Origin: Solwaraspora sp. WMMD406
GTDB lineage: Bacteria > Actinomycetota > Actinomycetes > Mycobacteriales > Micromonosporaceae
Length of the DNA stretch: 64,000 nt
Assembly: GCF_029626025.1 (NCBI RefSeq)
Contig: NZ_JARUBF010000001.1
Span: 4,030,001-4,094,000 of the forward strand
Reading direction: 5' to 3'
Position 1 is the first letter of the stretch, and each line of letters opens with the position of its first letter. A program made the position numbers and the translations under genes. Positions 27,840 through 41,074 of this stretch are shown in pieces. Under the pieces are notes generated by a model. That model made no database searches. It was not told where the DNA came from and worked only from the letters and a program-made list of their open reading frames with translations.

Positions 27840-27929
27840 CCGACAGCGGTCGCCCGATCGGCAGCTGATCCGGTCGACATGCGACCTCGTCGACCATCGT
27901 GCGCCCCGGTGGCTGGTTTAGACCGTGTG

Positions 27930-28425
27930 TCAGTAGGGGTTGTTGCTGGTCAACAGGTTAAGTCGGTCGGCGCGGCGGTAGCAGATCAGAGCGCATGCCA
28001 GGTGGAGGAATCCGAGGTAGTGGGAAGCCTTGCGGTCGTAGCGGCGGACCAGCCGTCGGAACCGGGTCATCCATTCGAGGCAGCGTTCGATGACGTAGCG
28101 GTGCCGGCCCAGCCGCTTCGACGACTCGATGCCCTTGCGCGCGATCCGTGCGACGATGCCGCGTTCGCGCAGGAGGTCGCGGCATTCGGGGTAGTCGTAG
28201 CCCTTGTCGCCGTGGAGTTTGCCCGGTCGTCTACGCGGCCGGCCGACCGGTTGACGCACTGGTGTGACGCCGTCGACCATGTCCTCGAGCATCCGGTGGT
28301 CGTTGAGGTTCGCGGCGGAGACGCCCACGTGCAGCGGCAACCCGCCCCGGTCGCTCATGGCGTGGATCTTGGAGCCGGGCTTGCCCCGGTCCACCGGGCT
28401 GGGCCCGGTCAGGTCCCCCTTTTCA
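27930..28425 (-). CDS. IS5-type transposase, second frame (OrfB, reached by frameshift)
   Basis: The continuing frame reads KGDLTGPSPVDRGKPGSKIHAMSDRGGLPLH-like DDE core sequence, then LHGDKGYDYPECRDLL with the second aspartate and RHRYVIERCLEWMTRFRRLVRRYDR with the catalytic glutamate. An OrfA-OrfB fusion across the slippery run gives the full DDE transposase. The left coordinate includes the stop; the right is the approximate slip site, because no independent start is evident. Confidence 0.85.
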
Positions 28426-28762
28426 CCGCGCGTACGTGCATGCTGTCGACACTCACCCTCGACCAGTCGATCCGCCCGGCCGCGCCGAGGACATCGAGCG
28501 TCGCCCGGTGCAGGGCGGTCATCACCCCGGCCTCGACCCATTCGGCGAACCGGCGGTGCGCGGTTCGCCAGTGGACCGGGAACGAGGCGGGCAGCTTGCG
28601 CCACGAGCAGCCGGACTCCAGTACGTACAGGATCGCCGCGAGCATCGCCCGGTCATCGGTCCGCCGCCGGCCGCCGCCCTGGTGCCTTTCCGGGTGCGGC
28701 GGCAGCAACGGCAGCGCGAGGTGCCACAACGCGTCGGGGCAGTACTTCTCCACGTCATCCAC
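28409..28762 (-). CDS. IS5-type transposase, first frame (OrfA)
   Basis: 117 aa. The N-terminal DUF4096-like part reads LWHLALPLLPPHPERHQGGGRRRTDDRAMLAAILYVLESGCSWRKLP, then the start of the catalytic domain with RIDWSRVSVDSMHVRAVKRGT. The first catalytic aspartate is in VSVDSM. The frame ends just after a run read as AAAAGGGGG on the coding strand (28415-28423), where ribosomes are expected to slip into OrfB. Confidence 0.9.
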   Translation of the reverse strand: MDDVEKYCPDALWHLALPLLPPHPERHQGGGRRRTDDRAMLAAILYVLESGCSWRKLPASFPVHWRTAHRRFAEWVEAGVMTALHRATLDVLGAAGRIDWSRVSVDSMHVRAVKRGT

Positions 28763-28814
28763 ACCACGTCAACGAATGACCTTGAACTTCAACAACCCCA
28801 AACGACACACGGTC

Positions 28815-30218
28815 TTAGCCGCCGGGGCGCACCCGTCGCTGCACCGGTCGGAACCGGGCGCGCAGGCCGGCGGGGGCGAGCCGGCCGGCGAACACCGGTA
28901 CGGCCGAGTCGGCGTTCGGCGAGTCGATGGTGAAGCGTTGCGCCAGGCGCGCGGTGACGAGGGTCAGCTGCCGCATCGTCGACGCCGATCCCAGACAGAC
29001 CCGTGGGCCGGCGCCGAACGGCAGGTACGTCCGGCCCGGTGCCGGCCGCCCGGACAGCCAGCGGTCGGGGTCGAATTCGTCTGGCCGGTCCGGCCACCAT
29101 CGGGGATCGCGGTGGATCAGATAGACGTTGAGGAGCACCTCGTCACCGGGGTGCACCGTCCACGGGCCGAGAGCGGTGGTGCTCCGGGCGGTGCGGGTCA
29201 TCAGCCAGGCCGGCGGATGCAGTCGCAGCACCTCCGAGACGACGGCCTCGGCCAACGGCTGCCGGGCCGCCGGACGACCGTCGTCGTCAGCCGCCGCGTC
29301 CGCCTCGTCGCGCAGGTCGGAGGCGAGCCGGGGCCGGCGGGCGAGTTCGCGCACCATCGAGGCGAGCGCGGCCGCCGGTACGCCGTGCCCGCCGACCAGG
29401 ACGGCGCGCAGCGTCGACACCACGGCCCGGTCGGGCATCGCCGGGTCGGCGGCGAGCAGGTGGTCCAGCAGGTCGCCGCCGGGTGTGCGGGGTCCGGCGG
29501 CACGTCGCCGTCGGACGAGTTCGGTCAGGGCGTCGACGGTCCGCCGGTGGACGCGGAAGAAGCGGCGGTGGCGGGGCAGCGGCAGCCAGGCGGGCAGCGC
29601 GTACGTGGTCGTCTCGAACGCCGCGGTGGCGTCGATGCCGTCGGCGAGCAGCCCCGGCACGTCGGAGTCCGTGGTGTCCTCGGGGCCGAAGCAGTAGTCG
29701 GCGATCAGCCGGGCGGTGAACCGGCGCATCGTGTCGAGGACGTCGATCTCGTCGCCGCCGGCGGCGACGAGCACTCGGTCCAGGATTTCGACGGTACGGG
29801 TGTCGGCGGCCGCCGCGGCGTGCCGGTTGAGCCCCGGCCACACCGTACGGCGGGCCGTCATCCAGTCGCCGGCCCGCGCGGCGGCCCGGTCGAGGTCAGG
29901 GTTGGCGTCGAACGGGGCCTGCTCGGTGAGGAAGTCGTGATCGGTGCGGGTCAGGACGTCGTGGGCCAGGTCGGGGTCGATGACGCACACCGTACGGTCG
30001 TCGAAGGAGAACACGTCGCCGTGTTCGTGGTGGCAGCGGCGCAGGAACCCGATCCGGTCGGTTTCGTAGGCGCGGGTGTTGCCGGTCAGCCAGTGTCCGC
30101 GCGGACCGGGCGGCCGTCGACCGTTCCCGCCGCGACCCGCCACACCGCGACCCGCCACACCGCGACCCGCCACACCGCGACCTGCCACACCGCCACCCGC
30201 CATGCCGTGACCCGCCAT
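28815..30218 (-). CDS. Cytochrome P450 next to aromatic RiPP precursor
   Basis: 467 aa. ExxR helix EVLRLHP and heme motif FGAGPRVCLG with ligand C408 identify a P450. The I-helix segment reads LVGGHGVPAAAL, lacking the usual acidic-threonine pair, which suggests a reaction other than ordinary hydroxylation, such as radical aryl coupling. The start at 30218 has GGAGG five bases upstream. Residues 9-30 are a glycine-rich VAGRG repeat encoded by four 15-bp tandem copies (about 30131-30190). It is the last gene of the RiPP-type operon, separated from the peptide B gene by a strong hairpin, and is the best candidate to crosslink the Tyr/Trp core of that peptide. An IS5-type element abuts its stop codon. 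Confidence 0.9.
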   Translation of the reverse strand: MAGHGMAGGGVAGRGVAGRGVAGRGVAGRGGNGRRPPGPRGHWLTGNTRAYETDRIGFLRRCHHEHGDVFSFDDRTVCVIDPDLAHDVLTRTDHDFLTEQAPFDANPDLDRAAARAGDWMTARRTVWPGLNRHAAAAADTRTVEILDRVLVAAGGDEIDVLDTMRRFTARLIADYCFGPEDTTDSDVPGLLADGIDATAAFETTTYALPAWLPLPRHRRFFRVHRRTVDALTELVRRRRAAGPRTPGGDLLDHLLAADPAMPDRAVVSTLRAVLVGGHGVPAAALASMVRELARRPRLASDLRDEADAAADDDGRPAARQPLAEAVVSEVLRLHPPAWLMTRTARSTTALGPWTVHPGDEVLLNVYLIHRDPRWWPDRPDEFDPDRWLSGRPAPGRTYLPFGAGPRVCLGSASTMRQLTLVTARLAQRFTIDSPNADSAVPVFAGRLAPAGLRARFRPVQRRVRPGG

Positions 30219-30234
30219 CCTGGCCTCCAAACGC

Positions 30235-30266
30235 ATCACAGGATCCCGTGGTCGGGATCCTGTGAT
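30235..30266 (-). terminator. Strong intercistronic hairpin after peptide B gene
   Basis: ATCACAGGATCCCG, a 4-base loop and CGGGATCCTGTGAT form a perfect 14-bp stem between the peptide stop (30319) and the P450 start (30218). No U-tract follows in the transcript direction, so it is more likely a partial terminator or 3'-end stabiliser than a full stop. Such hairpins in RiPP operons raise precursor output relative to enzymes. Confidence 0.75.
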
Positions 30267-30318
30267 CCGAGTCGGTCCACTGTCATCGGTGGACGTCGTC
30301 GCTGGTGTCGGTGTCGGT

Positions 30319-30408
30319 CTACTCGTAGTGGTAGGGCCAGTAGATGTAGCGTCCACTGACGCGCTTCTTGCCCACCAGACGAGCTGCCAGGTGTCGGAGC
30401 GTCCGCAT
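30319..30408 (-). CDS. Putative RiPP precursor peptide B, 29 aa, aromatic C-terminus
   Basis: A short gene, ATG 30408 to TAG, preceded by GAGGTGA with five bases to the start. The N-terminal part is basic and leader-like (MRTLRHLAARLVGKK); the C-terminus is GRYIYWPYHYE with four tyrosines, one tryptophan and one histidine. It is followed directly by a stable hairpin and then a P450. Cittilin derives from a similar-sized precursor with a YIYY core crosslinked by a P450, so YIYW (residues 21-24) with a PYHYE follower is a plausible core here; the biarylitides and atropopeptides show that P450s also join Tyr, His and Trp. No product is known; the role is inferred from sequence and context. Confidence 0.78.
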   Translation of the reverse strand: MRTLRHLAARLVGKKRVSGRYIYWPYHYE

Positions 30409-30502
30409 GGCGATCACCTCTTTCATCGGTCGAGGCGAATACTTCTCATGATCGTGGCACGTCGTTCATCTTTACGCAATGCCATGAAGTCGGCACTTCT
30501 GG

Positions 30503-31714
30503 TTACAACACTGTGTCGTCCGACCAGTGCACCGGCAATGCCAGTGGGCCGCGCACGATCGTGCCGGTGCGCCACCGCACCCCGTCCGGGTCGAGCAGCC
30601 GCAGACCCGGCACCCGCGCCGTCAGCGTGCCGATCACCTCTTCGAGTTCCATCGTGGACAGCCACGCGCCCAGGCAGCGGTGCGGACCGTGGCCGAAGGC
30701 CAGATGCCGGGCGGCCGGCCGCCGATCCGGATCGAACGTGTCCGGATCCGGGTACACCGTCGCGTCACGATTGGCCGACACCGCCGAGGTGAACACCGCC
30801 TCACCGGCCCGGATGGTGACCCCACCCAGTTCGACGTCCTCGGTCGCCACCCGAGGCAGGCCGCTGCCGCCGTTGAGCGGCACGAACCGCAGCAGCTCCC
30901 GCACCACGTCCGGGACACGCTGCGGCGACCGGCACAGCAGATCCCAGAACCGCCGGTGCCGCAGCAGCAGATATGTCGAGCTGGCCAGATGGCTGGCGGT
31001 GGTCTCGAACCCGGCCGCGAGCAGGGTCACGCCGAACGAGACCAGTTCCCGTTCGGTCATCGTCGCGCCGTCGTCGGTGGCCCGCACCAGCACACCGAGC
31101 AGGTCGTCGGTGGCGCTCCGGCGGCGGTGGGCGATGAGTTCGCCGAGGTAGTCCTCCAGTTGGGCGGCGATCGCCCGGAACCGGTCGGCCGGCATCGCGC
31201 CGGGGGCGAGCAGCGCCTCGGTCCACACCCGGAACCGGTCGCGGTCGGCCAGCGGCACCCCGAGCACGTGGCAGAGCACGGTCATCGGCACCGGCAGGGC
31301 GACCGTGGTGCACAGGTCCGCCGGGGTCGGCCCGGCGAGCAGCGCGTCGACGCGTTCGGCGGCCACCTGCCGGACGTACGGGCGCAGCAGCTCCACCCGC
31401 CACTGGGCGAACGCGGTGGCGGCGATCCGCCGCAGCCGGCTGTGTTCGGGGCGGTCCAAGTCCAGGATGGTGGTGGCGACCGGCGGTGCCTCGGTCTGTC
31501 GTGGCACGTCCGGCCGGCAGGCGGCGGCCCGGCTGAACCGGGGATCGGCCAGCACCGTCGTCACGTCGGCGTAGCGGGTGGCCAGCCAGGCGTCGCCGCC
31601 GTACGGCAGCCGGACCCGCGACACCGGGCACTGCGCCCGCAGCCGCGCCAGCCGGGGGTCGAGCCCCAGTTCGTCGAAGTCCCGGAACGGGTAGGGCGGC
31701 GGCGGGTCGGTCAC
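30503..31714 (-). CDS. Cytochrome P450 (canonical bacterial type)
   Basis: 403 aa, normal for a soluble bacterial P450. I-helix LLAAGFETTASHL holds the acid-threonine pair for oxygen activation, the ExxR is in VRELLRFVP, and the heme motif is FGHGPHRCLGAWLS with C347. The GTG start at 31714 lies 3 bases after the stop of the DUF5825-like gene, so it is part of the radical SAM operon. Redox partners are not encoded nearby. It could hydroxylate or crosslink either peptide; the operon position just before peptide B gives no preference. The 94-bp gap to the peptide B gene shows no clear promoter. Confidence 0.93.
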   Translation of the reverse strand: MTDPPPPYPFRDFDELGLDPRLARLRAQCPVSRVRLPYGGDAWLATRYADVTTVLADPRFSRAAACRPDVPRQTEAPPVATTILDLDRPEHSRLRRIAATAFAQWRVELLRPYVRQVAAERVDALLAGPTPADLCTTVALPVPMTVLCHVLGVPLADRDRFRVWTEALLAPGAMPADRFRAIAAQLEDYLGELIAHRRRSATDDLLGVLVRATDDGATMTERELVSFGVTLLAAGFETTASHLASSTYLLLRHRRFWDLLCRSPQRVPDVVRELLRFVPLNGGSGLPRVATEDVELGGVTIRAGEAVFTSAVSANRDATVYPDPDTFDPDRRPAARHLAFGHGPHRCLGAWLSTMELEEVIGTLTARVPGLRLLDPDGVRWRTGTIVRGPLALPVHWSDDTVL

Positions 31715-31717
31715 GGC

Positions 31718-32284
31718 TCACACCGCCACGTACGGCACCGGCCAGTGCCGCATCCGGTACGGCAGGATCAGGACGGCGTCGCCGGCCGCGACGGCGAGTC
31801 CTGCCTCGACCGCGACCGCCGCCGCTTCGGCGTCGCCGGTGACCGGGCCGCTGGTGGAAAGGCCGCCTGCGGGCAGGTCCCCGGCGAGGCGCAGGAACGC
31901 GTCGAAGCCGTCGGTGATCACCATCCGGCTCTGCTCCACTCCCGGTCGGACATCCTTGACCACCACCAGAGAAGGTCCGCGCCGGTAGTAGAAGCTGCCG
32001 TAGCGGTACGCCAGCCCCCACTCGGCGGCGTACGCCCGGCTGCGCTGGTCGGCCGCGTCCGACGGCGCGACCAGATGGACGTGGGTCTCCAACGGGAACA
32101 GCGGCCGGCCGCGCAGCGTCCACCGCAGCCGTACGGCGTGGCTGGTGACCTCGCGCAGGAATCGCAGCTGGGCCAGATCTTGCTCGGGGGATTCGCCGAA
32201 CTCCAGCGGCTCGGGCAGGGTGACGGTCCGCAGCGACCAGGCGGGCAGGTCGAGGCGGTCGATCGGAGTCGTCGCCGTGGTCAT
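31718..32284 (-). CDS. DUF5825-like partner of the radical SAM protein
   Basis: 188 aa. It resembles, from memory, the small proteins (DUF5825) that accompany RiPP C-methyltransferase radical SAM enzymes in actinobacteria; their biochemical role is not established. Features are WTLRGRPLFPLETHVHLVAPS, an aromatic stretch YAAEWGLAYRYGSFYYRRGPSL and a C-terminal PYRMRHWPVPYV. The stop of the radical SAM gene is two bases before its ATG at 32284, implying coupled translation and probably a complex. No signal peptide or membrane segment is visible. Confidence 0.6.
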   Translation of the reverse strand: MTTATTPIDRLDLPAWSLRTVTLPEPLEFGESPEQDLAQLRFLREVTSHAVRLRWTLRGRPLFPLETHVHLVAPSDAADQRSRAYAAEWGLAYRYGSFYYRRGPSLVVVKDVRPGVEQSRMVITDGFDAFLRLAGDLPAGGLSTSGPVTGDAEAAAVAVEAGLAVAAGDAVLILPYRMRHWPVPYVAV

Positions 32285-32286
32285 CT

Positions 32287-34149
32287 TCAGGCCACCTTGA
32301 TCGGTTCGACGGCGGTCGCCAGGGTGATCCAGCGCCCGTTTTCCTCGAAGACCAGGCCGGCGGCGTCGAGTTCGGCCAGCCACTCGGTGATCCGCCCGGT
32401 GAGCCAGGAGGCGCGCCGGTCGGCTGTGCGCGGTGTCGCGTCGTCGGTGAGCCGGCCGACCAGCGCCGACACCGTACGACCGGGTTGCAGCTCGGCGTAG
32501 GCGCGGCGCAGCAGCGGGTCGGTGATCCGGTGTTCGCGCTGCGGCCAGCCGACCCGCCGGTCCTCGATCACGATCTCGTCGGCGGTCAGGCCGGTGACCA
32601 GCTCCAACGCGCTGGCCGGGTAGCTGTCGGCCCAGCGTTTGAGCAGTTCGTTGAGGGGTTCGGCGTCCTGGTCGCTCAGCCCGGCGGGGTCGGTGTCGAA
32701 CAGGTAGACCATGTCTTGGACGGCCGCCTCGGGCAGGTCGTAGACGTGCTGGTAGAGCCGGGCCGGCCGGCGCTGCGGGAAGCCGAGCGCCGGGTTCTCG
32801 AAGTACGGGCTGAACCGTTCGAGCAGGATCCGGGACGCCCCGGCGGGTGGCTGCAGGTGCGCCAGCCGGGGGAGTTGACGCAGCACCGCCTCGTAGTCGG
32901 CGAGGCGTTCACCGGGGAAGCCGTACAGCCAGTTCCAGGACACCGTCAGGCTGGCCGATTCGCAGTCGCGCAGCGTACGGACGTTGTGGATGCCGGAAAC
33001 GCCTTTGTCCATCAGTTTGAGCACCGGGGAGACCAGCGACTCGATGCCTGGTTGCACGTGGGCGACGCCGGCCGACCGCAGCGCGGTGATCTCGGCGGGC
33101 CGCAGGTTGGACTTGACCTCGTAGTGCAGCCGCAGGTCCAGGTCGAGCGCCGCGATCCGGGGCAGGAAGTCGCTGTAGTACCGGTTGTCGATGATGTTGT
33201 CCACCATGATCACGTCGAGGGTCTGGTGGCGGCCGATCAGATCGGTCAGCTCGTCGACCACTCGCGCCGGGGACTTGGCCCGGAACGTCATCGCGGTGCC
33301 GTTGAGGCCGCAGAAGGTGCAGTGGTGCTTCTCGCCCCACCAGCAGCCCCGGGCGCTCTCCAGGACCAGCTTCGGTTCGATGTAGCCGTCGATGGTGGAC
33401 TCGGCGAACTGGGCGAACCAGTCGTCGAACAGCGGGGTGGGGATGTGCGCGGGGGCCAGCAGCGAGCCTTGCGGGTTGTGCCGGGCCTCGCCGTCGTGTC
33501 GCCAGGACAGCCCGGGGACGCTGGCGAAGTCGGTCCGGCCGTCGAGGGCGTCGAGCAGCCGGGGGAAGGCGACCTCGCCTTCGCCTCGGACGACGAAGTC
33601 GACGAACGGGTAGTTGCGGTGCAGGGCTATGCCCATCGCGCCGTCGCAGTTGCCGCCGCCGAAGGCGATCCGTACGTCGGGGGCGAGCTGGCGGATCCGG
33701 CGGGCCACCGCGAGGCTCGGCACGTTCTGCATGAACGTGGTGGTGAAGCCGACCAGGGTCGGTCCGGTGGCGAGGATCTCGTCGGCGGCCAGCCGGACGA
33801 AGGCGTCGGCGTACCGGCGCATCGCCGTCGGCGTGGCGATGCCGGTGCCGTACTCGGCGGCGTAGCGGCGCAGCGTGTCGACGCCGAACTCGGGGTCGTC
33901 GTGCAGCACTCCGGCGAACACCCAGTCACCGAGACCGTCGAAGAGGCCGACCTCGGCGACCTCGGTGTAGTCGGCGGGCGTCAGTTCCCCGTCGCTGTGT
34001 TCCATCAGGAACTCCGCCCAGCGCAGGCTGCCGTGGTAGGCCGCCGGTTCGGGGCGGCCGGCCGCGCGGGTGGCGGCCTTGAGCAGCCCGATCGGCAGCG
34101 ACGGTGACTCGATGGCCTGCCAGGGCATCGCGACCAGACACACCGACAT
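32287..34149 (-). CDS. B12-binding radical SAM RiPP maturase (C-methyltransferase type)
   Basis: 620 aa. The N-terminal half is a cobalamin-binding-like Rossmann domain (PTLVGFTTTFMQNVPSLAVARRI to FVDFVVRGEGEVAFPRLL, about residues 130-200). The cluster-binding cysteines are C269, C277 and C280 (C-x7-C-x2-C in GCWWGEKHHCTFC), the unusual spacing of the RiPP maturation radical SAM protein 1 family rather than the common CxxxCxxC. These enzymes are thought to C-methylate peptide residues. ATG 34149 has GGAGG six bases upstream. It follows the peptide A gene and its hairpin, which makes peptide A its likely substrate. Confidence 0.88.
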   Translation of the reverse strand: MSVCLVAMPWQAIESPSLPIGLLKAATRAAGRPEPAAYHGSLRWAEFLMEHSDGELTPADYTEVAEVGLFDGLGDWVFAGVLHDDPEFGVDTLRRYAAEYGTGIATPTAMRRYADAFVRLAADEILATGPTLVGFTTTFMQNVPSLAVARRIRQLAPDVRIAFGGGNCDGAMGIALHRNYPFVDFVVRGEGEVAFPRLLDALDGRTDFASVPGLSWRHDGEARHNPQGSLLAPAHIPTPLFDDWFAQFAESTIDGYIEPKLVLESARGCWWGEKHHCTFCGLNGTAMTFRAKSPARVVDELTDLIGRHQTLDVIMVDNIIDNRYYSDFLPRIAALDLDLRLHYEVKSNLRPAEITALRSAGVAHVQPGIESLVSPVLKLMDKGVSGIHNVRTLRDCESASLTVSWNWLYGFPGERLADYEAVLRQLPRLAHLQPPAGASRILLERFSPYFENPALGFPQRRPARLYQHVYDLPEAAVQDMVYLFDTDPAGLSDQDAEPLNELLKRWADSYPASALELVTGLTADEIVIEDRRVGWPQREHRITDPLLRRAYAELQPGRTVSALVGRLTDDATPRTADRRASWLTGRITEWLAELDAAGLVFEENGRWITLATAVEPIKVA

Positions 34150-34227
34150 CGGAGGCCTCCAAAGCGGTACGGGTTGTTCCACGCCGGTACGGGTGGTGTG
34201 GCGCATCACGGACGCCGGGGAGGAAGC

Positions 34228-34255
34228 GCCGGATGGGGCTGACACCCCACCCGGC
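34228..34255 (-). terminator. Hairpin after peptide A gene
   Basis: GCCGGATGGGG, a 6-base loop and CCCCACCCGGC pair over ten base pairs with one A/C mismatch, starting 5 bases after the peptide A stop. As with the hairpin behind peptide B, it can act as a partial terminator or mRNA stabiliser so that more precursor than enzyme is made. Confidence 0.65.
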
Positions 34256-34260
34256 ACCTG

Positions 34261-34344
34261 TCACTTCTCGGCCTTGCGGGTCGGAACCAGGTACTTGCAG
34301 GTGCCGTGCGTCGGCTTCTTCAGGCCGACCTTCTTGATCGTCAC
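34261..34344 (-). CDS. Putative RiPP precursor peptide A, 27 aa, single cysteine
   Basis: GTG 34344 to TGA, with GGAGG eight bases upstream; another GTG at 34353 overlaps that ribosome binding site and is disfavoured. The peptide is strongly basic, with KKPTHGTCKYLVPTRK in the second half: one Cys, one Tyr, one His and two Pro. It starts 5 bases after the diiron oxygenase stop, so it is translated with it, and lies directly before the radical SAM gene. The context is that of a RiPP precursor. The modified residues cannot be told from the sequence; the Thr-His-Gly-Thr-Cys-Lys-Tyr stretch is the natural place to look. Confidence 0.7.
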   Translation of the reverse strand: MTIKKVGLKKPTHGTCKYLVPTRKAEK

Positions 34345-34349
34345 GTCGT

Positions 34350-35102
34350 TCACCTCCCTTCCACGTCGACTCCGCCGGCCCGCAGGCGGGCCCGGTGGCG
34401 GCGGAGGAACCAGTGCCGGACCCGGTCGGGCTCGCGGCCGGTCAGTTCGGCCAGGGAGACCGAGATCGTGTCCAGGTAGGTCAACCGCATGCCGATCTCG
34501 TGCCACTGCGGCCCGTACTCGTGCCACAGCTCGCGCCCCCGGCCCTTGGTGGCCTCCCGGGCCAGGTAGTTGAGTCCGATCGCGACGTGCTGGATCTCGT
34601 CGCGGCGGACGTGGTGGTAGAGCCGGCCGAGCGGGTCGCCGGCGAAGACCTCGCGCAGCAGGATGAACTCGTCGGCGGCGAAGCCTTCCAGCATCGTGTG
34701 CACCAGCGCCCGACCCATGTGCGGCAGCCTTGTCAGCGCCTGGTCCAGCGGCTCCATCAACTCGGCGGCCTCCGGTTCCGGCTCGCCGCCGACCAGCTTG
34801 GCGTACTGGTAGAAGGCGTCGGCGTGGCGGGCCTCATCGGCGGTGGCCAGCGCCAGACTGAACCGCAGCGGGGCGTCCTCGGTCTGCGCGGCGAGGGTGG
34901 CCGCCGCGACCAGGCCGGCCTGTTCGGCGTAGTAGCCGCGTGAGGCCATCCGCCAGGCCATCTCGGCCCGGTCCCAGCCCGGGTTCGCCGGCCCACGGCC
35001 GATGATGTCCGCAGCGCGCCACGGGGTCTTGTCCCGGGTCACCCCGAAGACGCGGTACGCCAATTCGTCCCGATCAAGATCGTCGGCATCGATGAGAGTC
35101 AT
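34350..35102 (-). CDS. Ferritin-like diiron oxygenase
   Basis: 250 aa. A four-helix diiron protein with ligands visible as E60, E90 and H93 (DEARH), E139, E169 and H172 (DEIQH), the E/ExxH/E/ExxH pattern of ribonucleotide-reductase-like oxygenases. Such enzymes perform N-oxygenation, desaturation, hydroxylation or C-C cleavage in natural product pathways. The start at 35102 has GGGGAG about seven bases upstream. It is the first gene of the minus-strand operon, transcribed divergently from the MFS gene. The substrate is unknown; peptide A, encoded 5 bases downstream, is the obvious candidate. The sequence does not match the heme-oxygenase-like diiron type with certainty. Confidence 0.85.
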   Translation of the reverse strand: MTLIDADDLDRDELAYRVFGVTRDKTPWRAADIIGRGPANPGWDRAEMAWRMASRGYYAEQAGLVAAATLAAQTEDAPLRFSLALATADEARHADAFYQYAKLVGGEPEPEAAELMEPLDQALTRLPHMGRALVHTMLEGFAADEFILLREVFAGDPLGRLYHHVRRDEIQHVAIGLNYLAREATKGRGRELWHEYGPQWHEIGMRLTYLDTISVSLAELTGREPDRVRHWFLRRHRARLRAGGVDVEGR

Positions 35103-35167
35103 GGTGAACTCCCCAATGGTGCTCGTCGTCCGCAATCATTCGCGGGGCCGGAGGAGGGGTGAGTGCG

Positions 35168-35230
35168 GATCGCCTGTTGCTCATCACGGCGATCGTCCGT
35201 TGCTCATCCATCGATCGCCCGTTGCTCATC
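35168..35230. promoter_or_regulatory. Three 18-bp direct repeats, candidate activator sites
   Basis: The units are 35168-35185, 35191-35208 and 35213-35230, with consensus GATCGYCYGTTGCTCATC and only one or two differences. Start-to-start distances are 23 and 22 bp, about two helical turns, so a protein would bind all three on the same DNA face. They lie between the divergent diiron oxygenase and MFS operons. SARP-type activators use direct repeats at 11- or 22-bp periods, but no such regulator gene is in the window. Confidence 0.6.
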
Positions 35231-35255
35231 GCAGCGCTGGCCGCGCCGTCGCGCG

Positions 35256-35268
35256 GTGACAATGTCAC
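35256..35268. promoter_or_regulatory. Palindrome GTGAC-AAT-GTCAC in the same divergent region
   Basis: A perfect 5-bp inverted repeat with a 3-bp centre, 26 bp after the direct repeats. It could be an operator for a second, dimeric regulator. The rest of the 333-bp region (35103-35435) holds no convincing gene. Confidence 0.3.
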
Positions 35269-35435
35269 GATGGTAAATGACCTCCGGCGGCAGGGCAAGC
35301 ATTTCCGGTGGTGTTCGATCCCGTGGCCGGCGGCGATGAAGTAGGCCAAGCGCATTTACCGTAGTCGACGTCGCTTCCGTCGAGAGTCGGCCTGTGGGAA
35401 GGTGACTCGACCCCGACGAGCCGAGGAGTGATGCC

Positions 35436-36710
35436 GTGCGCGGCCGTTTCGCCACGTCGATCGCGGTGGACCGGGCGCTGCGTCCGGCCGTGGCCGCCCA
35501 GGCGGCCAGCGTCGTCGGCACCCACGTCGCCGCGCTGGCCCTGCCGACCGTGGCCGTACTCGTCCTGCACGCCTCGCCGGTCGCGGCGGCCACCCTGTTC
35601 GCCCTGGAGTACGGCGCCCAGGCGATCGCCGCGCCCCTGCTCGGCGTGGTGGTCGACCGGGTCACCGACCGGCGGCGGCTGCTGGTCCTCGCCAGCGCCG
35701 GTACGGCTGTCGCGGTGCTCGCCGTACCCGTCGCCCACCTGGCCGGGGTCCTTTCCCTGCCGCTGCTCTACGCCGTCGCCGCCCTGTCCGGGATCCTCGG
35801 CGGGCTGGTCACCATCGGGGTGCAGGCGACCGTGCCGCAACTGGTCGCACCCGAGCGCCTCGTCGGCGCCAACGCCGCCCTGGCTGGAGCCCAGTCGGCC
35901 GGGCAGATCGCCGGTCCGGCGCTGGCCGGCTGGCTGGTGCAGACCCTCGGCGGGGCCCTGGCGATGTCGGCCAACGCGGTTGGCCAGGCGTTGGCCGCGC
36001 TCGGTTTCGCCGCGTTGCGCCCCCGGCCGGTGGCCCCGTCCGCGACGCCGGCGGGGGCGACGCGGCAGCGTCCGTTGCGCGACCTGCGCGACGGTGTCGC
36101 TGCCCTGCGCGGCCGGCCCGTGCTGGTCCGGATCGCGGTCACGGCGGCGGCGCTCAACCTCGGCGGCTCGGCGATCGGCGGCCTGTACGTGCTGTACGCG
36201 TACCGGATCCTGCAGGTCTCGCCGTGGCTGCTCGGCCTCACGTTCGCGGTCAACAGCGTGGCCGCCGTGGTGGCGGTGCTGACCGCCGGCCGGGTGGTCG
36301 CCCGGCTGGGTCACACCCGGGTGGTGCCGGTTTTCGCGCCGGCCGCCGGTGCCGCGCTGATGCTGATCCCGCTGGCGTCGGTGACCCCGCCGGTGGTGAC
36401 GCTGATCTGCTACGAGGCGGTCTTCGGCTACTGCGCGACGGTCTGGCTGATCGCCTCGGTGTCTCTGCAGCAGTCGCTCGTCCCGGCGCGTCTGCTGGGC
36501 CGGGTGCTCGCGCTCAGCCGGTCGTTGGCGGTGATCGCGGTGCCGGTCGGCGCACTCGCGGCCGGTGTCCTGGCGCAGGTCTGGGGGGTGTTGCCGGCGC
36601 TGACCGGGTTCGCCGCCGTCGCTTTCCTGGGTACGGTCGCAGCGGTCTCCCGTACAGTGGCGGCACCCCGGGCCGATCAGCCGGAAGCTTCAGATCAAAC
36701 ACTTCCGTAG
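35436..36710 (+). CDS. MFS exporter of the RiPP-type cluster
   Basis: 424 aa with about 12 hydrophobic segments, of the EntS-like MFS_3 type: HVAALALPTVAVLVLHASPVAAATLFALEYGAQAIAAPLLGVVVDRVTDRRRLLV shows the conserved first loop between helices 2 and 3. Start is GTG 35436, with GAGGAG seven bases upstream. It is the first gene on the plus side of the cluster and probably exports the product or gives self-resistance. Transcription is divergent from the diiron/radical SAM operon through the direct-repeat region. Confidence 0.9.
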   Translation: MRGRFATSIAVDRALRPAVAAQAASVVGTHVAALALPTVAVLVLHASPVAAATLFALEYGAQAIAAPLLGVVVDRVTDRRRLLVLASAGTAVAVLAVPVAHLAGVLSLPLLYAVAALSGILGGLVTIGVQATVPQLVAPERLVGANAALAGAQSAGQIAGPALAGWLVQTLGGALAMSANAVGQALAALGFAALRPRPVAPSATPAGATRQRPLRDLRDGVAALRGRPVLVRIAVTAAALNLGGSAIGGLYVLYAYRILQVSPWLLGLTFAVNSVAAVVAVLTAGRVVARLGHTRVVPVFAPAAGAALMLIPLASVTPPVVTLICYEAVFGYCATVWLIASVSLQQSLVPARLLGRVLALSRSLAVIAVPVGALAAGVLAQVWGVLPALTGFAAVAFLGTVAAVSRTVAAPRADQPEASDQTLP

Positions 36711-36716
36711 CATCGA

Positions 36717-36745
36717 TTGACTTCGACGCCAATTTCTGCTATTTC
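36717..36745 (+). promoter_or_regulatory. Possible promoter after the MFS gene
   Basis: TTGACT and TATTTC are separated by 17 bp, 7 bp after the MFS stop. It would give a long leader before the E1 alpha gene. Weaker than the site at 36784. Confidence 0.35.
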
Positions 36746-36783
36746 CCGGGGTCTCGTCCTCGGGATCATCCTTTTACTAGCTG

Positions 36784-36814
36784 TTCACACAACGGCGGTC
36801 GGCGTAATTATAAT
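36784..36814 (+). promoter_or_regulatory. Probable promoter of the E1 alpha/E1 beta/aminotransferase operon
   Basis: A perfect TATAAT at 36809-36814, rare in such GC-rich DNA, with TTCACA 19 bp upstream (a long spacer). A transcript would start near 36821, about 63 bases before the E1 alpha ATG. Confidence 0.5.
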
Positions 36815-36883
36815 GACGGCATTCGGGTGGCCCGGCCGCCCGGCTAATGGCGACGGCTGCCTGAGGGGGCGGGACCGCGAAGA

Positions 36884-37975
36884 ATGGACCTGTCGAGCGC
36901 GTACCGAGAGATGGTCCGGATCAGGATGTTCGAGGAACGGGTCCTGGAGTGCGCCGCCGCCGGGCTGGTCCCGGGTTCGGTGCACCCCTACACCGGGCAG
37001 GAGGCGGTCGCCGTCGGGGTGCTGGCCGCCCGGCGGCCCGACGAGTGGGTGGCCAGCTTCTACCGCTGCCACGGACACGCGTTGGCCGCCGGGGTGTCCG
37101 CGACCGGTCTGCTGCGCGAGATCCTCGGCCGGGCCGGCGGAGTCTGCGGCGGCAAGGCCGGATCGATGCACATCGCCGACCGTTCCCGGCATCTGCTGGG
37201 TGCCAGTTCCATCGTGGCCGCGCAGCTGCCGATCGCGGCCGGCGCGGCGATGGCGGAGAAGGCCGCCGGGGCCGGACGGGCGGTCATCGCGTTCTGCGGC
37301 GACGGCGCGTTCGGCGCCGGGGTCACCTACGAGACGCTCACCGTGGCCGCCCTGCACGGACTGCCGCTGCTGCTGGTCTGCGAGGAGAACGGCTGGCAGG
37401 ACCACACCCGCAGCGACCTGGTCCGACACCGCACGCCCGCGTTGATCGCCCAGGGCCTGGGCCTGGACTGCGCCGAGGTCGACGGCAACGACGTGACCGC
37501 CGTGCACGACGCCGCCGACACGGCGCTGCGCCGCTGCCGGGCCGGGGTGCCGCAGGTCGTGGTCGCCCACACCTACCTGCGGCACTTCCACGCCCAACTC
37601 GGATCGCAGCCACCGGCGGAGTACCGGCCGGCGGACGAACGGGACCACTGGTTCGCCCGGGATCCGCTGGTCCTGGCCGAGTCGGCGCTGGCTGACTCGG
37701 TCCTGGCCGAGTCGGCGCTGGCCGCGTCCGGGCCCGCCGACCCGACTGTGGCCGCGTCCGGGCCCGCCGACCCGACTCGCGGCGCGGCGGCGGCGATCCG
37801 CGCCGACGTCGCGCGGGAGATGGCCGACGTGTTCGCCGACGCGCTCGGCGCCGACCCGCCCGACCCGGCGACCGCCACGACAGCCGTCACCACGGTGGCG
37901 TGGCCCGAGCACGCCGTCCGGCCGGAACCCGGCGGATCGCCACAGCGGGCCGCGTCGCCGGAGCCGGTCGGATGA
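36884..37975 (+). CDS. Thiamine-diphosphate-dependent 2-oxoacid dehydrogenase E1 alpha-like subunit
   Basis: 363 aa. The E1 alpha fold is shown by MVRIRMFEERVLECAAAGLVPG, SFYRCHGHALAAG, GGKAGSMHIAD and the thiamine diphosphate motif GDGAFGAG...EENGW (GDG 139-141, N169). The C-terminus has an odd linker (about residues 265-305) made of repeated LAESALA and VAASGPADPT units. Its stop overlaps the E1 beta start. No E2 acyltransferase or E3 gene is present, so it probably does not run a normal dehydrogenase complex; decarboxylation or carboligation of a 2-oxo acid feeding the aminotransferase is a more likely role. The substrate is unknown. Confidence 0.88.
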   Translation: MDLSSAYREMVRIRMFEERVLECAAAGLVPGSVHPYTGQEAVAVGVLAARRPDEWVASFYRCHGHALAAGVSATGLLREILGRAGGVCGGKAGSMHIADRSRHLLGASSIVAAQLPIAAGAAMAEKAAGAGRAVIAFCGDGAFGAGVTYETLTVAALHGLPLLLVCEENGWQDHTRSDLVRHRTPALIAQGLGLDCAEVDGNDVTAVHDAADTALRRCRAGVPQVVVAHTYLRHFHAQLGSQPPAEYRPADERDHWFARDPLVLAESALADSVLAESALAASGPADPTVAASGPADPTRGAAAAIRADVAREMADVFADALGADPPDPATATTAVTTVAWPEHAVRPEPGGSPQRAASPEPVG

Positions 37976-39003
37976 GCCGGCGGCACCCCTCGGTCGCGGC
38001 CGTACGCGGCGCGCTCGCCGACCAACCCGAGCTCAGCATGTTCTGCACCTACCAGCAGCCCGACCTGATCGAACTCTTCGGTGCCGAGCGGATGGTCCGC
38101 CTGCCGATCGCCGAGAACGCGATGCTCGGCATGGCGGTCGGGATGGCGCTGCTCGGCCGGCGGGTCCTGGTCAGCATCGCCCGGGCCGCGTTCCTGTTCA
38201 GCGCCTTCGACCAGCTGATCAACGAAGCCACCAAATGGCGGTACATGTCCGACGGACAGTTCACCGTACCGATCGTCATCCGTGGCCTGACCCAGGGCGG
38301 CGAACACCTGGGCGCCCAGCACGAACACGCCGCGCACGGCATGCTCAGCCAGATTCCCGGGCTGGTGGTCGCCGTACCCGGGTCACCCAACGCCGCCGCC
38401 GGACTGCTGCGTACCGCGCTGGTCCACCCCGACCCGGTCGTCGTGCTGGAATCGCCCCGGCTGTACGGCCCCGACTGGGCGGAGCTGCCCGAGCCGGAGC
38501 CGAACGCCGACCCGCTGCCGTTCGGCGTCGCCGGACAGGCCCGACCCGGTGGCGGCCTCACCCTGGTCGGCATCGGCAACACCGTCGCCACCTGCCTGCG
38601 GGCCGCCGCCACCCTGGACCGGGACGGGCTGCGCGTCCAGGTGGTGGACCTGCGTACCGCCGCACCGCTGGACCTCGACGGGGTCGCCGGCCTGGTCGAC
38701 GGCGCGGGCCCGGTCGTGCTGGTCGACGAGGCACCGGCCGGTGCCAGCGTGATGTCCGCGCTCGGCCTGCACCTGGTCCGTGCCGGCGTGGTCGCGCCGG
38801 ACCGCCTCGACGTCCTCGCCGGCGCGCCGGTACCGGCGCCGGTGAGTCCACCGCTGGTCGCCGCTCTGCTTCCGGACGAGCGGCGGGTCGTCACCGCCGC
38901 CCGCGCGCTGCTGGACCGGCACCGACCAGGGCGGGTCGCGGCCGGTGCGGGTGCCGGCACCGCACCGGCCACCGTGAACCCCGCCACCGAGGAGCCGAGA
39001 TGA
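37972..39003 (+). CDS. Thiamine-diphosphate-dependent dehydrogenase E1 beta-like subunit
   Basis: 343 aa. The pyrimidine-binding transketolase-like domain includes RMVRLPIAENAMLGMAVGMALLGRRVLVSIARAAFLFSAFDQLINEATKWRYMS, with the conserved glutamate in IAEN. The C-terminal transketolase domain starts near GGGLTLVGIGNTVATCLRAA. It forms the heterotetramer with the E1 alpha-like protein; the genes overlap by four bases. The stop overlaps the aminotransferase ATG. The last 25 residues are an Ala/Gly/Pro-rich tail. Confidence 0.87.
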   Translation: MSRRHPSVAAVRGALADQPELSMFCTYQQPDLIELFGAERMVRLPIAENAMLGMAVGMALLGRRVLVSIARAAFLFSAFDQLINEATKWRYMSDGQFTVPIVIRGLTQGGEHLGAQHEHAAHGMLSQIPGLVVAVPGSPNAAAGLLRTALVHPDPVVVLESPRLYGPDWAELPEPEPNADPLPFGVAGQARPGGGLTLVGIGNTVATCLRAAATLDRDGLRVQVVDLRTAAPLDLDGVAGLVDGAGPVVLVDEAPAGASVMSALGLHLVRAGVVAPDRLDVLAGAPVPAPVSPPLVAALLPDERRVVTAARALLDRHRPGRVAAGAGAGTAPATVNPATEEPR

Positions 39004-40340
39004 TCGATCCGTCCACATACCACGCCTGGCACGGCATCGTCCCGATGGGGGAGTTCCTGGCCGAGTCCGACCCGGGCATGTTCCTGGTCGGTGGTGAAGG
39101 CAGCCACGTGATCGACCGGGCCGGCCGGCGCTACCTGGACGCCCGGTCCTCGATGTGGAACGTCACGCTCGGCTACTCCTGCGAGCCGGTCAAGGCAGCC
39201 ATCCGCCGGCAGCTCGGCGACCTGCCCTCCGGCACGGTGATGCGCTACGAACACCCGCCGCAGATCACCGTCGACTACGCGGCCGCGCTCGCCGCCTGGC
39301 TCCCGCCGACGCTGCGGCACATCCGGTTCGGCAACACCGGCAGCCAGATGACCGAGGCGGCGGCGATGCTGTCCCGCTTCCACCGCCGGATGACCGGGGA
39401 GACCGGCCGCGAGTACGTCGTCGCCGTACACGGCAGCTACCACGGCACCGGGCCGCTGGCGACCGCGCTGACCGGGGAACAGATCCTGCACGAGTGGTCG
39501 GCCCCGCTCGACGACCGTACGGTGCACGTCGCGGCGGCACCGGCCGACGGCTGCGACGACAGCTGCGGCGGCCGCCGTGACGACGACTGCGTACGGCCGC
39601 TCGCGGAGGTCGTCGACCGGCTCGGACCCCAGCGGGTGACCGCTGTCATCGTCGAGCCGGTGATGGGCAACTACCTCCACGCCGCCAGCACCCACCAGTT
39701 GGAGTCGTTGATCCGCTACTGCCGGGGGCACGGCGTCCACGTCATCGTCGACGAGGTCACCACCGGAGCCGGCCGGGTGGCTGCGATGACGGTGAGCGGC
39801 CGGCTGGCGCTGGAACCGGACATGATCGTGCTGGGCAAGGGGCTGAGCGCCGGCTACTTCCCGTTGACCGCGCTCGCGGTGGCCGATCCGATCTTCGACG
39901 CGTTGGCCACGCCGCCGGTCCGGCTCGGCTTCCCCAACGGCTCCACCACCGACGGCCATCCGCTCGGCGCGGCCGCCGGGCTGGCCGTCCTGGAGATCCT
40001 GACCGCCGACGGCTTCCTCGACGGGGTCCGCGAGCGCGGCCGCCAGCTGCGCGACACGCTCCTGGACACCCTCGCCGACGATCCGCACGTCGGCGACGTC
40101 CGTGGCGAGGGGATGCTGCTCGGTCTGGAGTTGCGCTACCGCGACGGTACGCCGTGGACGCTGCGCGACGTCTACCGGCTGCGGCTGGCCTGCCGGGACA
40201 ACGGGCTGCTCGTCAGCTACGCGGACGGGGTGATGCCGTTGCTGCCACCGTTGACGATCAGTGTCGACGAGTGCGCCGAACTGGCCACGGTCCTCGGCAA
40301 GACGATCACCGCGTACGCCGCCGAGCATCTGACGAGCTAG
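39000..40340 (+). CDS. Class III PLP-dependent aminotransferase
   Basis: 446 aa. PLP phosphate-binding GNTGS (111-115), the D251 that contacts the pyridine nitrogen in IVDEVTTGAGR, and the Schiff-base lysine K280 in VLGKGLSAGYFP are all present. The family transfers amino groups to aldehydes, ketones or omega-positions. ATG 39000 overlaps the E1 beta stop, so its substrate is probably the product of the E1 pair. An insertion near residues 184-198 with three cysteines and several Asp residues (DGCDDSCGGRRDDDC) is unusual and might bind metal. The daptide RiPPs also use a class III aminotransferase, but their other genes are absent here. Confidence 0.92.
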   Translation: MIDPSTYHAWHGIVPMGEFLAESDPGMFLVGGEGSHVIDRAGRRYLDARSSMWNVTLGYSCEPVKAAIRRQLGDLPSGTVMRYEHPPQITVDYAAALAAWLPPTLRHIRFGNTGSQMTEAAAMLSRFHRRMTGETGREYVVAVHGSYHGTGPLATALTGEQILHEWSAPLDDRTVHVAAAPADGCDDSCGGRRDDDCVRPLAEVVDRLGPQRVTAVIVEPVMGNYLHAASTHQLESLIRYCRGHGVHVIVDEVTTGAGRVAAMTVSGRLALEPDMIVLGKGLSAGYFPLTALAVADPIFDALATPPVRLGFPNGSTTDGHPLGAAAGLAVLEILTADGFLDGVRERGRQLRDTLLDTLADDPHVGDVRGEGMLLGLELRYRDGTPWTLRDVYRLRLACRDNGLLVSYADGVMPLLPPLTISVDECAELATVLGKTITAYAAEHLTS

Positions 40341-40384: not shown

Positions 40385-41074
40385 TCAGCCGTCGCGCCGA
40401 CCGGTCTTGGTGTCGACAAGCGGCACCCGTGCCGGCTCGTCGATCGCCCAGCGGCGGGCCAGCGCGGTGGCGCCGACGACGGCGGCGACGACGAGTCCGA
40501 TCTCGACGGCGACGATGGCGGGCACCAGGCTGTACCCGGTCGACCAGGCGAAGGCGATGGTGATCGGGGTGACCCCGACGCCGGCGAGCGGCATGAGGAT
40601 CAGCATCCGGTTGGCGGTGGTGCGGACCCTCGGCAGGTGGCGTAGCCGGGTCCGTACGGCGATGACCGCGCCGGCGACCAGCAGCGCGGCGGGGATTCCG
40701 TAGTACACGACGATCGCCAGGAGCAGTGGCACCGCGAACGTACGCGGCAGGTCGACCAGGTGTACCGCCACGGGGTAGATGACCATCATCGCCAGGTAGC
40801 CGGCGACGGCGCCGACCACGGAACCGGCGAGCGCGGTGCGCACGACGCGGCCGTACTCGGCCGGGAGCCGGACGACACCGGCCTCGTCGGCCAGGCGTCG
40901 GGCGAATCCGGCGACGTCGGCGCCGAGCAGCTGGGCCGGGGTGATGCCGTCGACGGCCGCCGACTCCAGATCCAGTCGCAGGTCGGCGGCGAGCGTCGCC
41001 CGGTCGGCGCGGGTCACGCCGTACGCCCGCCAGGCGGAATCGGCGGCGGCGATCGTGTCGTCGATGGTGTCCAC
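40385..41074 (-). CDS. Membrane protein with N-terminal HAAS/permease-prefix-like domain
   Basis: 229 aa. The soluble N-terminus (about residues 1-80) resembles the short helical domain found in proteins paired with PadR regulators (HAAS type): DLRLDLESAAVDGITPAQLLGADVAGFARRLADEAG. About four to five transmembrane helices follow (from AGSVVGAVAGYLAMMVIYPVAV on). The GTG 41074 start has GAGGAG six bases upstream and is 2 bases from the PadR stop. The pair probably senses membrane or cell-wall signals; the exact function of this family is not known. Confidence 0.7.
   Translation of the reverse strand: MDTIDDTIAAADSAWRAYGVTRADRATLAADLRLDLESAAVDGITPAQLLGADVAGFARRLADEAGVVRLPAEYGRVVRTALAGSVVGAVAGYLAMMVIYPVAVHLVDLPRTFAVPLLLAIVVYYGIPAALLVAGAVIAVRTRLRHLPRVRTTANRMLILMPLAGVGVTPITIAFAWSTGYSLVPAIVAVEIGLVVAAVVGATALARRWAIDEPARVPLVDTKTGRRDG

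Follow-up and report, generated by a model that had tools for sequence, protein, structure and literature searches.

In clavusporins, amino acids are reportedly C-methylated by a B12-dependent radical S-adenosylmethionine (SAM) enzyme and its partner, a DUF5825 protein (PMC12257519), and a CX7CX2C motif has been reported for PoyC, a C-beta methyltransferase of the B12 type (PMC11285071). Other ribosomally synthesized and post-translationally modified peptides (RiPPs) are cross-linked by P450s: atropopeptides require a KSLK leader motif and a Trp at core position 2 (PMC11450843), and the biarylitide precursor consists of five residues (PMC13417212). The locus analysed here lies at positions 28815–40340 of a stretch of 64,000 nucleotides from Solwaraspora sp. 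WMMD406 (contig NZ_JARUBF010000001.1, positions 4,030,001 to 4,094,000), which is called the window below. It carries genes related to several of these systems, and they form two units, not one. Unit 1 comprises the genes for a diiron protein, peptide A, a B12-dependent radical SAM protein (rSAM), a DUF5825 protein and P450B, divergent from those for a major facilitator superfamily (MFS) exporter, E1-alpha, E1-beta and a class III aminotransferase (AT). Unit 2 consists of peptide B and P450A.

The original prediction, made from the window alone, had described one tight minus-strand operon with two short precursors and six catalysts, facing a divergent operon, and had proposed that a modified peptide is combined with a moiety from 2-oxo acid chemistry, or else that two RiPP pathways have their regulation in common. 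All these genes were found at the positions given for them, including the two short open reading frames (ORFs) with Shine-Dalgarno sequences on the minus strand and the divergent operon for MFS, E1-alpha, E1-beta and AT. A Pfam scan of genes at 24–44 kb revealed neither E2 nor E3. The minus strand does not encode six catalysts: besides two P450s there are an rSAM of the TIGR03975 type, a diiron protein and a DUF5825 protein. Nor is it conserved as a single operon, because peptide A follows the diiron gene while peptide B accompanies P450A elsewhere. We consider unit 1 to be a RiPP pathway in which peptide A would be modified by rSAM, DUF5825 and the diiron protein, with E1 and AT as a family-specific addition for 2-oxo acid and amine chemistry (probability about 0.6).

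Co-occurrence of E1 with the peptide unit

The comparison covered 354 genomes of the family Micromonosporaceae, 187 other genomes of the class and 396 genomes of the phylum. Of the 354 family genomes, 16 matched a profile of the diiron protein at E ≤ 1e-30; 14 of these reached E ≤ 1e-114, and two (G334 and G349), with approximately 1e-37, were set aside. No further cluster gene was seen in the stretches read around the diiron genes of these two (L066 and L065), of which L066 starts at a contig end. With E1-beta of the window as query, 14 of the 354 genomes were found at E ≤ 1e-75, and these are the identical 14 genomes. In each of them the diiron and E1-beta genes lie within about 11 kb of each other. 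Ten of the 14 loci are arranged divergently, as in the window; in the other four (L057, L058, L059 and L064) the genes for E1-alpha, E1-beta and AT are convergent to the diiron operon and the MFS gene is located behind DUF5825 or P450B. As the genes stay together in two layouts, the linkage has outlived rearrangement. The pairwise identities of one cluster protein correlate with those of the others at 0.85–0.99. Among the 187 other class genomes sampled, none contains a close member of the E1-beta clade; the best matches there (E ≤ 1e-45) reach 37–39% identity. Three pairs of locus names (L041/L061, L043/L060 and L040/L042) refer to one record each, which was counted once. The placing of E1-alpha and E1-beta with peptide A, rSAM and the diiron protein is thus borne out, and because the same 14 of 354 genomes carry both parts, adjacent in two layouts, the best reading is a pathway in which 2-oxo acid chemistry is combined with a modified peptide.

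Outside the family, the diiron profile found nothing beyond the window's own protein at E ≤ 1e-25 in the 396 phylum genomes. A pattern-limited scan of species-level genomes revealed four loci, two from Micromonospora, one from Actinopolyspora xinjiangensis (L042, identical to L040) and one from Streptacidiphilus sp. 4-A2 (L044), the reading frames of which are broken. The Actinopolyspora locus encodes the diiron protein, the peptide, rSAM, DUF5825, an MFS protein, a short-chain dehydrogenase/reductase (SDR) and a flavin amine oxidase; no AT relative was found in this genome at E ≤ 1e-40. The Streptacidiphilus locus contains the genes for the diiron protein, peptide, rSAM, DUF5825, P450B, MFS and SDR and adjoins nonribosomal peptide synthetase (NRPS) and asparagine-synthase genes. 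The original prediction had named related minus-strand operons without E1/AT genes as the sign of two independent clusters, and such operons, with no E1/AT in the 19–21 kb covered, do occur in L040/L042 and L044. E1 and AT are therefore an extension within the family and not a universal part of the unit.

More distant rSAM proteins were found at 18 outside places, eight of which were fetched and read (44–53% rSAM identity). DUF5825 was detected in four of the eight and a diiron match in none. Beside the two closest rSAMs (52–53% identity) lie short ORFs that contain IKKVVVR or LKKVAVR and have other cores; on the basis of these two loci, the outside ORFs fit a putative leader combined with an exchangeable core. 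Five loci carry other short ORFs, four of an MQKD..NDPL kind and one, in L129, reading MRKRVIKNDPISG; L132 shows none that is obvious. The ORFs of L130, L131, L133 and L134 share the pattern MQKD[IV]I.NDPL.GDEE.RKP..GI[ST][IV]TVPF and are another candidate kind of precursor.

Peptide A and the enzymes of unit 1

Peptide A (MTIKKVGLKKPTHGTCKYLVPTRKAEK; 34261–34344, minus strand) is basic and short, with its best start at GTG 34344 (27 amino acids) preceded by the Shine-Dalgarno sequence GGGAGG. A similar short ORF with a Shine-Dalgarno sequence follows the diiron gene in all 16 loci read, which together contain 17 intact and two degenerate copies, and a GxCKY peptide was found in each of the 14 family loci. 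Examples are the peptide of L039 (MKIKKVGLKKVTHGTCKYIADLKKATK), which has a tandem sister, and the relatives in L057 (MKITVVKVKAPTHGVCKYLVPLNRPQTESQK), L044 (MTIKKVVLKEVTAGVCKYVVPTRK) and L040 (MAIKRVEIKNRTRGVCRYVIRTSVSKTKTSS). Tandem duplicates are present in L039, L058 and L059, and in the last two the second copy has a core without Cys and Tyr. For the ratio of nonsynonymous to synonymous changes (pN/pS), the alignment was anchored on the core and the degenerate copies of L058 and L059 were left out; the ratio is 0.42 for the seven codons of the core, and 0.35 when only the copies of the genus and of L038 are compared. Invariant columns amount to 6 of 19 in frame 0, 4 of 18 in frame 1 and 2 of 18 in frame 2, but most of the six are built in, because the copies had been chosen with a pattern already requiring G, C, Y, I and V. 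What supports peptide A independently of this choice is where the ORF lies, the Shine-Dalgarno sequence in front of it and the sparing of its reading frame. No family model matched peptide A or peptide B.

The rSAM gene (32287–34149, minus strand) encodes a member of the RiPP C-methyltransferase family TIGR03975 (579.1 bits, cut-off 281.85), the only one of four matches in the genome that lies above the cut-off. In Pfam, Radical_SAM is above its cut-off (34.4 versus 29.5) and the B12-binding domain below (29.1 versus 32.1). A CX7CX2C motif of the CWWGEKHHCTFC type is present in 15 of the 16 loci; the exception, L044, has a broken frame. The only solved rSAM relative found by phmmer was TokK. 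Adjacent to rSAM lies the DUF5825 gene in all 14 family loci (31718–32284 in the window, minus strand; 70.3 bits versus a Pfam cut-off of 25); its product, the proposed rSAM partner, belongs to a kind described only as partner of TIGR03975-type rSAMs. P450B (30503–31714, minus strand; Pfam p450), presumably an accessory tailoring enzyme, is encoded beside DUF5825 in seven of the 14 family loci and in L044. The combination of a TIGR03975-type rSAM and DUF5825 next to a short precursor resembles the clavusporin module (PMC12257519), whereas unit 1 differs from it by the diiron protein, the E1 pair, the class III AT and the GxC[KR]Y core. With the PoyC-type C-beta methyltransferases of polytheonamide (PMC11285071), unit 1 shares the Cx7Cx2C radical SAM motif of the B12 type, but its precursor is short and non-proteusin and its partners are others.

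The product of the diiron gene (34350–35102, minus strand, 250 amino acids) reached the cut-off of no Pfam or other family model. An AlphaFold2 model (predicted local distance difference test, pLDDT, 82) consists of long helices, and the top Foldseek matches were R2-like ligand-binding oxidase (E 9e-4), aldehyde-deformylating oxygenase and PaaA, with 13–20% identity. The putative ligands E58, E88xxH91, E137/E143 and E167xxH170 are invariant across nine aligned sequences, and the motifs are found in 15 of the 16 loci. The protein thus fits the ferritin-like diiron oxygenases and oxidases, with a predicted four-helix fold and a predicted metal site made up of E, ExxH, E and ExxH. The two distant relatives in L065 (9729) and L066 (388), at 36–37%, are encoded immediately upstream of what reads from the sequence as an NRPS condensation domain. 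A large LuxR-type regulator (AAA_16 and GerE) adjoins the diiron gene in four of the 14 family loci (10234–13722 in L058, and L057, L059 and L064).

On the plus strand, the MFS exporter gene (35436–36710; Pfam MFS_1), present in all 14 family loci, is followed by E1-alpha (36884–37975; Pfam E1_dh), E1-beta (37972–39003; Pfam Transket_pyr and Transketolase_C) and AT (39000–40340; Pfam Aminotran_3). The GDG..N motif of E1-alpha, which binds thiamine diphosphate (ThDP), is kept in 14 of 14 loci. A GE(D/E)V..GGVF-type loop of E1-beta is deleted in all 14 orthologues and retained in the three other E1-beta-like proteins of the same genome, one of which reads GADV. The loss of the ThDP-activating glutamate, suspected from this deletion, was rejected, because the glutamate of the PIAE motif, which is likely to be the activating one, is present in all 14 loci. 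The folds and the GDG..N and PIAE motifs are those of 2-oxo acid dehydrogenase E1 of the pyruvate dehydrogenase type; unlike such a complex, unit 1 has neither E2 nor E3 among the scanned genes and lacks the E1-beta loop. AT has a class III fold, is encoded in 13 of the 14 family loci (not in L064), and has the daptide aminotransferase NF041821 as its top NCBIfam model. With 241 bits against a cut-off of 450 it is not a member of that family, and general class III models score close behind; the precursor and the other genes of unit 1 presumably do not match daptide features either. Genome G373 contains an AT relative with just 47% identity elsewhere in the genome. The spacer between the divergent diiron and MFS genes contains three direct repeats of about 23 bp (35168–35236; GATGAGCAAC...), and a search for GAxGAGCAAC matched in the window only and in none of nine related spacers.

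Peptide B and P450A

Peptide B (MRTLRHLAARLVGKKRVSGRYIYWPYHYE; 30319–30408, minus strand) starts best at ATG 30408 and is 29 amino acids long. It precedes P450A (28815–30218, minus strand), probably its cross-linking P450, which was found with 66–70% identity at 15 other places in 14 of 150 other relatives; two places in G001 look identical. A peptide of the kind LRHxAARLxGxxxVSGRYPYWFYNYE precedes P450A in all 16 places, the window included. Five of 21 P450A places, with 36–40% identity, were left out of this count; one of them, L099, has a weak aromatic-tailed ORF. The 15 related unit 1 loci contain no homologue of peptide B (best E 0.14). In the cluster-bearing genomes G001, G004, G005 and G042, P450A and the diiron gene are more than 500 kb apart (in G001 one P450A copy lies on a different contig), G026, the fifth other cluster-bearing relative in this search, has no P450A, and G002 and G006 carry P450A without the diiron gene. 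The idea that both peptides and both P450s serve one pathway is thus not supported: peptide B and P450A are an independent pair elsewhere. Within the family, peptide A does travel with E1, as had been asked of both peptides, and peptide B does not.

The two-gene layout, the short precursor with aromatic end and the P450 make unit 2, and only unit 2, similar to P450 cross-linked RiPPs such as atropopeptides, biarylitides and micitide. An assignment to the atropopeptides was rejected, since peptide B has neither a KSLK-type leader motif nor a Trp at core position 2, as the definition demands (PMC11450843), and one to the biarylitides because of its 29 amino acids versus the five-residue precursor described for these (PMC13417212). 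P450A shows weak similarity to the RiPP P450 ApyO (131 bits, cut-off 525). Tandem repeats of 15 bp (about six copies, 30130–30217) encode a GVAGR repeat near its N-terminus, and similar repeats are located in E1-alpha (37673–37777).

An IS5-type insertion sequence (IS) element (27899–28832) borders P450A. It carries a DDE transposase in two frames (27930–28604 and 28409–28762) and inverted ends of 39 nt (27915–27953 and 28782–28820); the right end overlaps the P450A stop codon, and despite this overlap the C-terminus of P450A still aligns with its orthologues. This element may explain the juxtaposition of the two units here. A tRNA-Gly (ccc) that ARAGORN reported at 40802–40900 is unusually long and without Rfam match, and is probably false.

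A proposed pathway for unit 1 and its alternatives

The N-terminal [KT]IKKVx[IL]K stretch of peptide A would serve as recognition leader and T-H-G-x-C-[KR]-Y as the modified core, with the variable tail being trimmed. The B12-dependent rSAM and DUF5825 would C-methylate the core and the diiron protein would oxidize it, with a further oxidation by P450B where this is present. The stand-alone ThDP enzyme, E1-alpha and E1-beta without E2 and E3, would have been recruited in this family to decarboxylate a 2-oxo acid and would most likely transfer the resulting unit by acyloin-type C-C bond formation; AT would convert the ketone to an amine and the MFS protein would export the product. We infer these reactions, their order and the residues changed; the substrate of E1 and AT may be the peptide itself, or the two may produce a partner molecule. 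What the computation shows directly is the gene content, that the peptide is conserved, that E1 is linked to the peptide unit and co-occurs with it, that the cofactor motifs are intact and that peptide B and P450A are independent. A rather doubtful version has the ThDP enzyme with its deleted active-site loop make the C-C bond on an oxidized residue of the peptide, for instance an aldehyde from the conserved Lys, after which AT would aminate the new ketone. One hint at this is that the sole locus with an Arg core (L040/L042) is without E1/AT, but L044 has a Lys core and likewise no E1/AT.

Several observations weigh against the proposed pathway. The 14 carriers are spread over four genera only, and therefore represent few independent events; the identity correlations also reflect shared descent. 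The pN/pS ratio of peptide A over all 17 copies is 0.67, which is weak when taken alone, and no protease gene was seen in the unit 1 cluster. The predicted DUF5825 model is moderate (pLDDT 72) and gave no fold match at E ≤ 0.001, and six of the eight outside rSAM loci show no IKKV-type leader. Further points concern E1 and AT, and they bear on a possible but improbable alternative, in which unit 1 holds two linked, independent pathways, passed on side by side under shared regulation, a peptide RiPP and a small-molecule E1/AT route to an amino alcohol or amino ketone. L040/L042 and L044 keep the peptide unit with no E1/AT found within 19–21 kb, AT is lost in L064, and the lowest correlations of identity are those of E1-beta (0.85–0.88 with diiron, rSAM, DUF5825 and MFS proteins). 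Two independent pathways would have to be reconciled with an E1-beta clade that never occurs without the peptide unit in the 354 family genomes and has no member above 39% identity in the 187 other class genomes, and with a linkage that is kept in both layouts.

Peptides can also give rise to redox cofactors, as in the case of pyrroloquinoline quinone (PQQ) and mycofactocin. That peptide A becomes a small redox cofactor or carrier serving the neighbouring enzymes, and not an exported antibiotic-like peptide, would agree with its conserved core of very few residues (GxC[KR]Y), the variable tail, the one or two precursor copies and the missing dedicated protease; we regard it as quite unlikely given the MFS exporter in all 14 family loci, the narrow and patchy spread (14 of 354 family genomes and four loci in the species-level scan) and the failure to identify a dependent dehydrogenase family. 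Even less probable is a role of peptide A as small regulator or structural peptide: although it is basic, short and of no known family, it is encoded between the diiron gene and a RiPP-type rSAM in 16 of 16 loci, is duplicated in tandem in three of them and has a conserved Cys-Lys/Arg-Tyr core. The reading of the original prediction in full, a single hybrid product that involves both peptides, the two P450s, E1 and AT, is largely refuted and hardly tenable; it draws on an adjacency seen in the window only, and conflicts with the absence of peptide B from the 15 related loci, the distant or separate P450A and peptide B in G001, G004, G005, G042, G002 and G006, and the IS element beside P450A.

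A search of the open-licence PubMed Central literature, judged by titles and the beginnings of abstracts, gave no description of the unit 1 gene set. The locus illustrates that short ORFs lying side by side in what looks like one operon need not serve the same pathway. Whether or not the peptide is a substrate of E1 and AT, the GxC[KR]Y peptides with their 17 intact copies define a testable precursor family whose partner enzyme genes can be co-expressed. If it is such a substrate, transamination and ThDP chemistry would be added to the means by which ribosomal peptides are modified.

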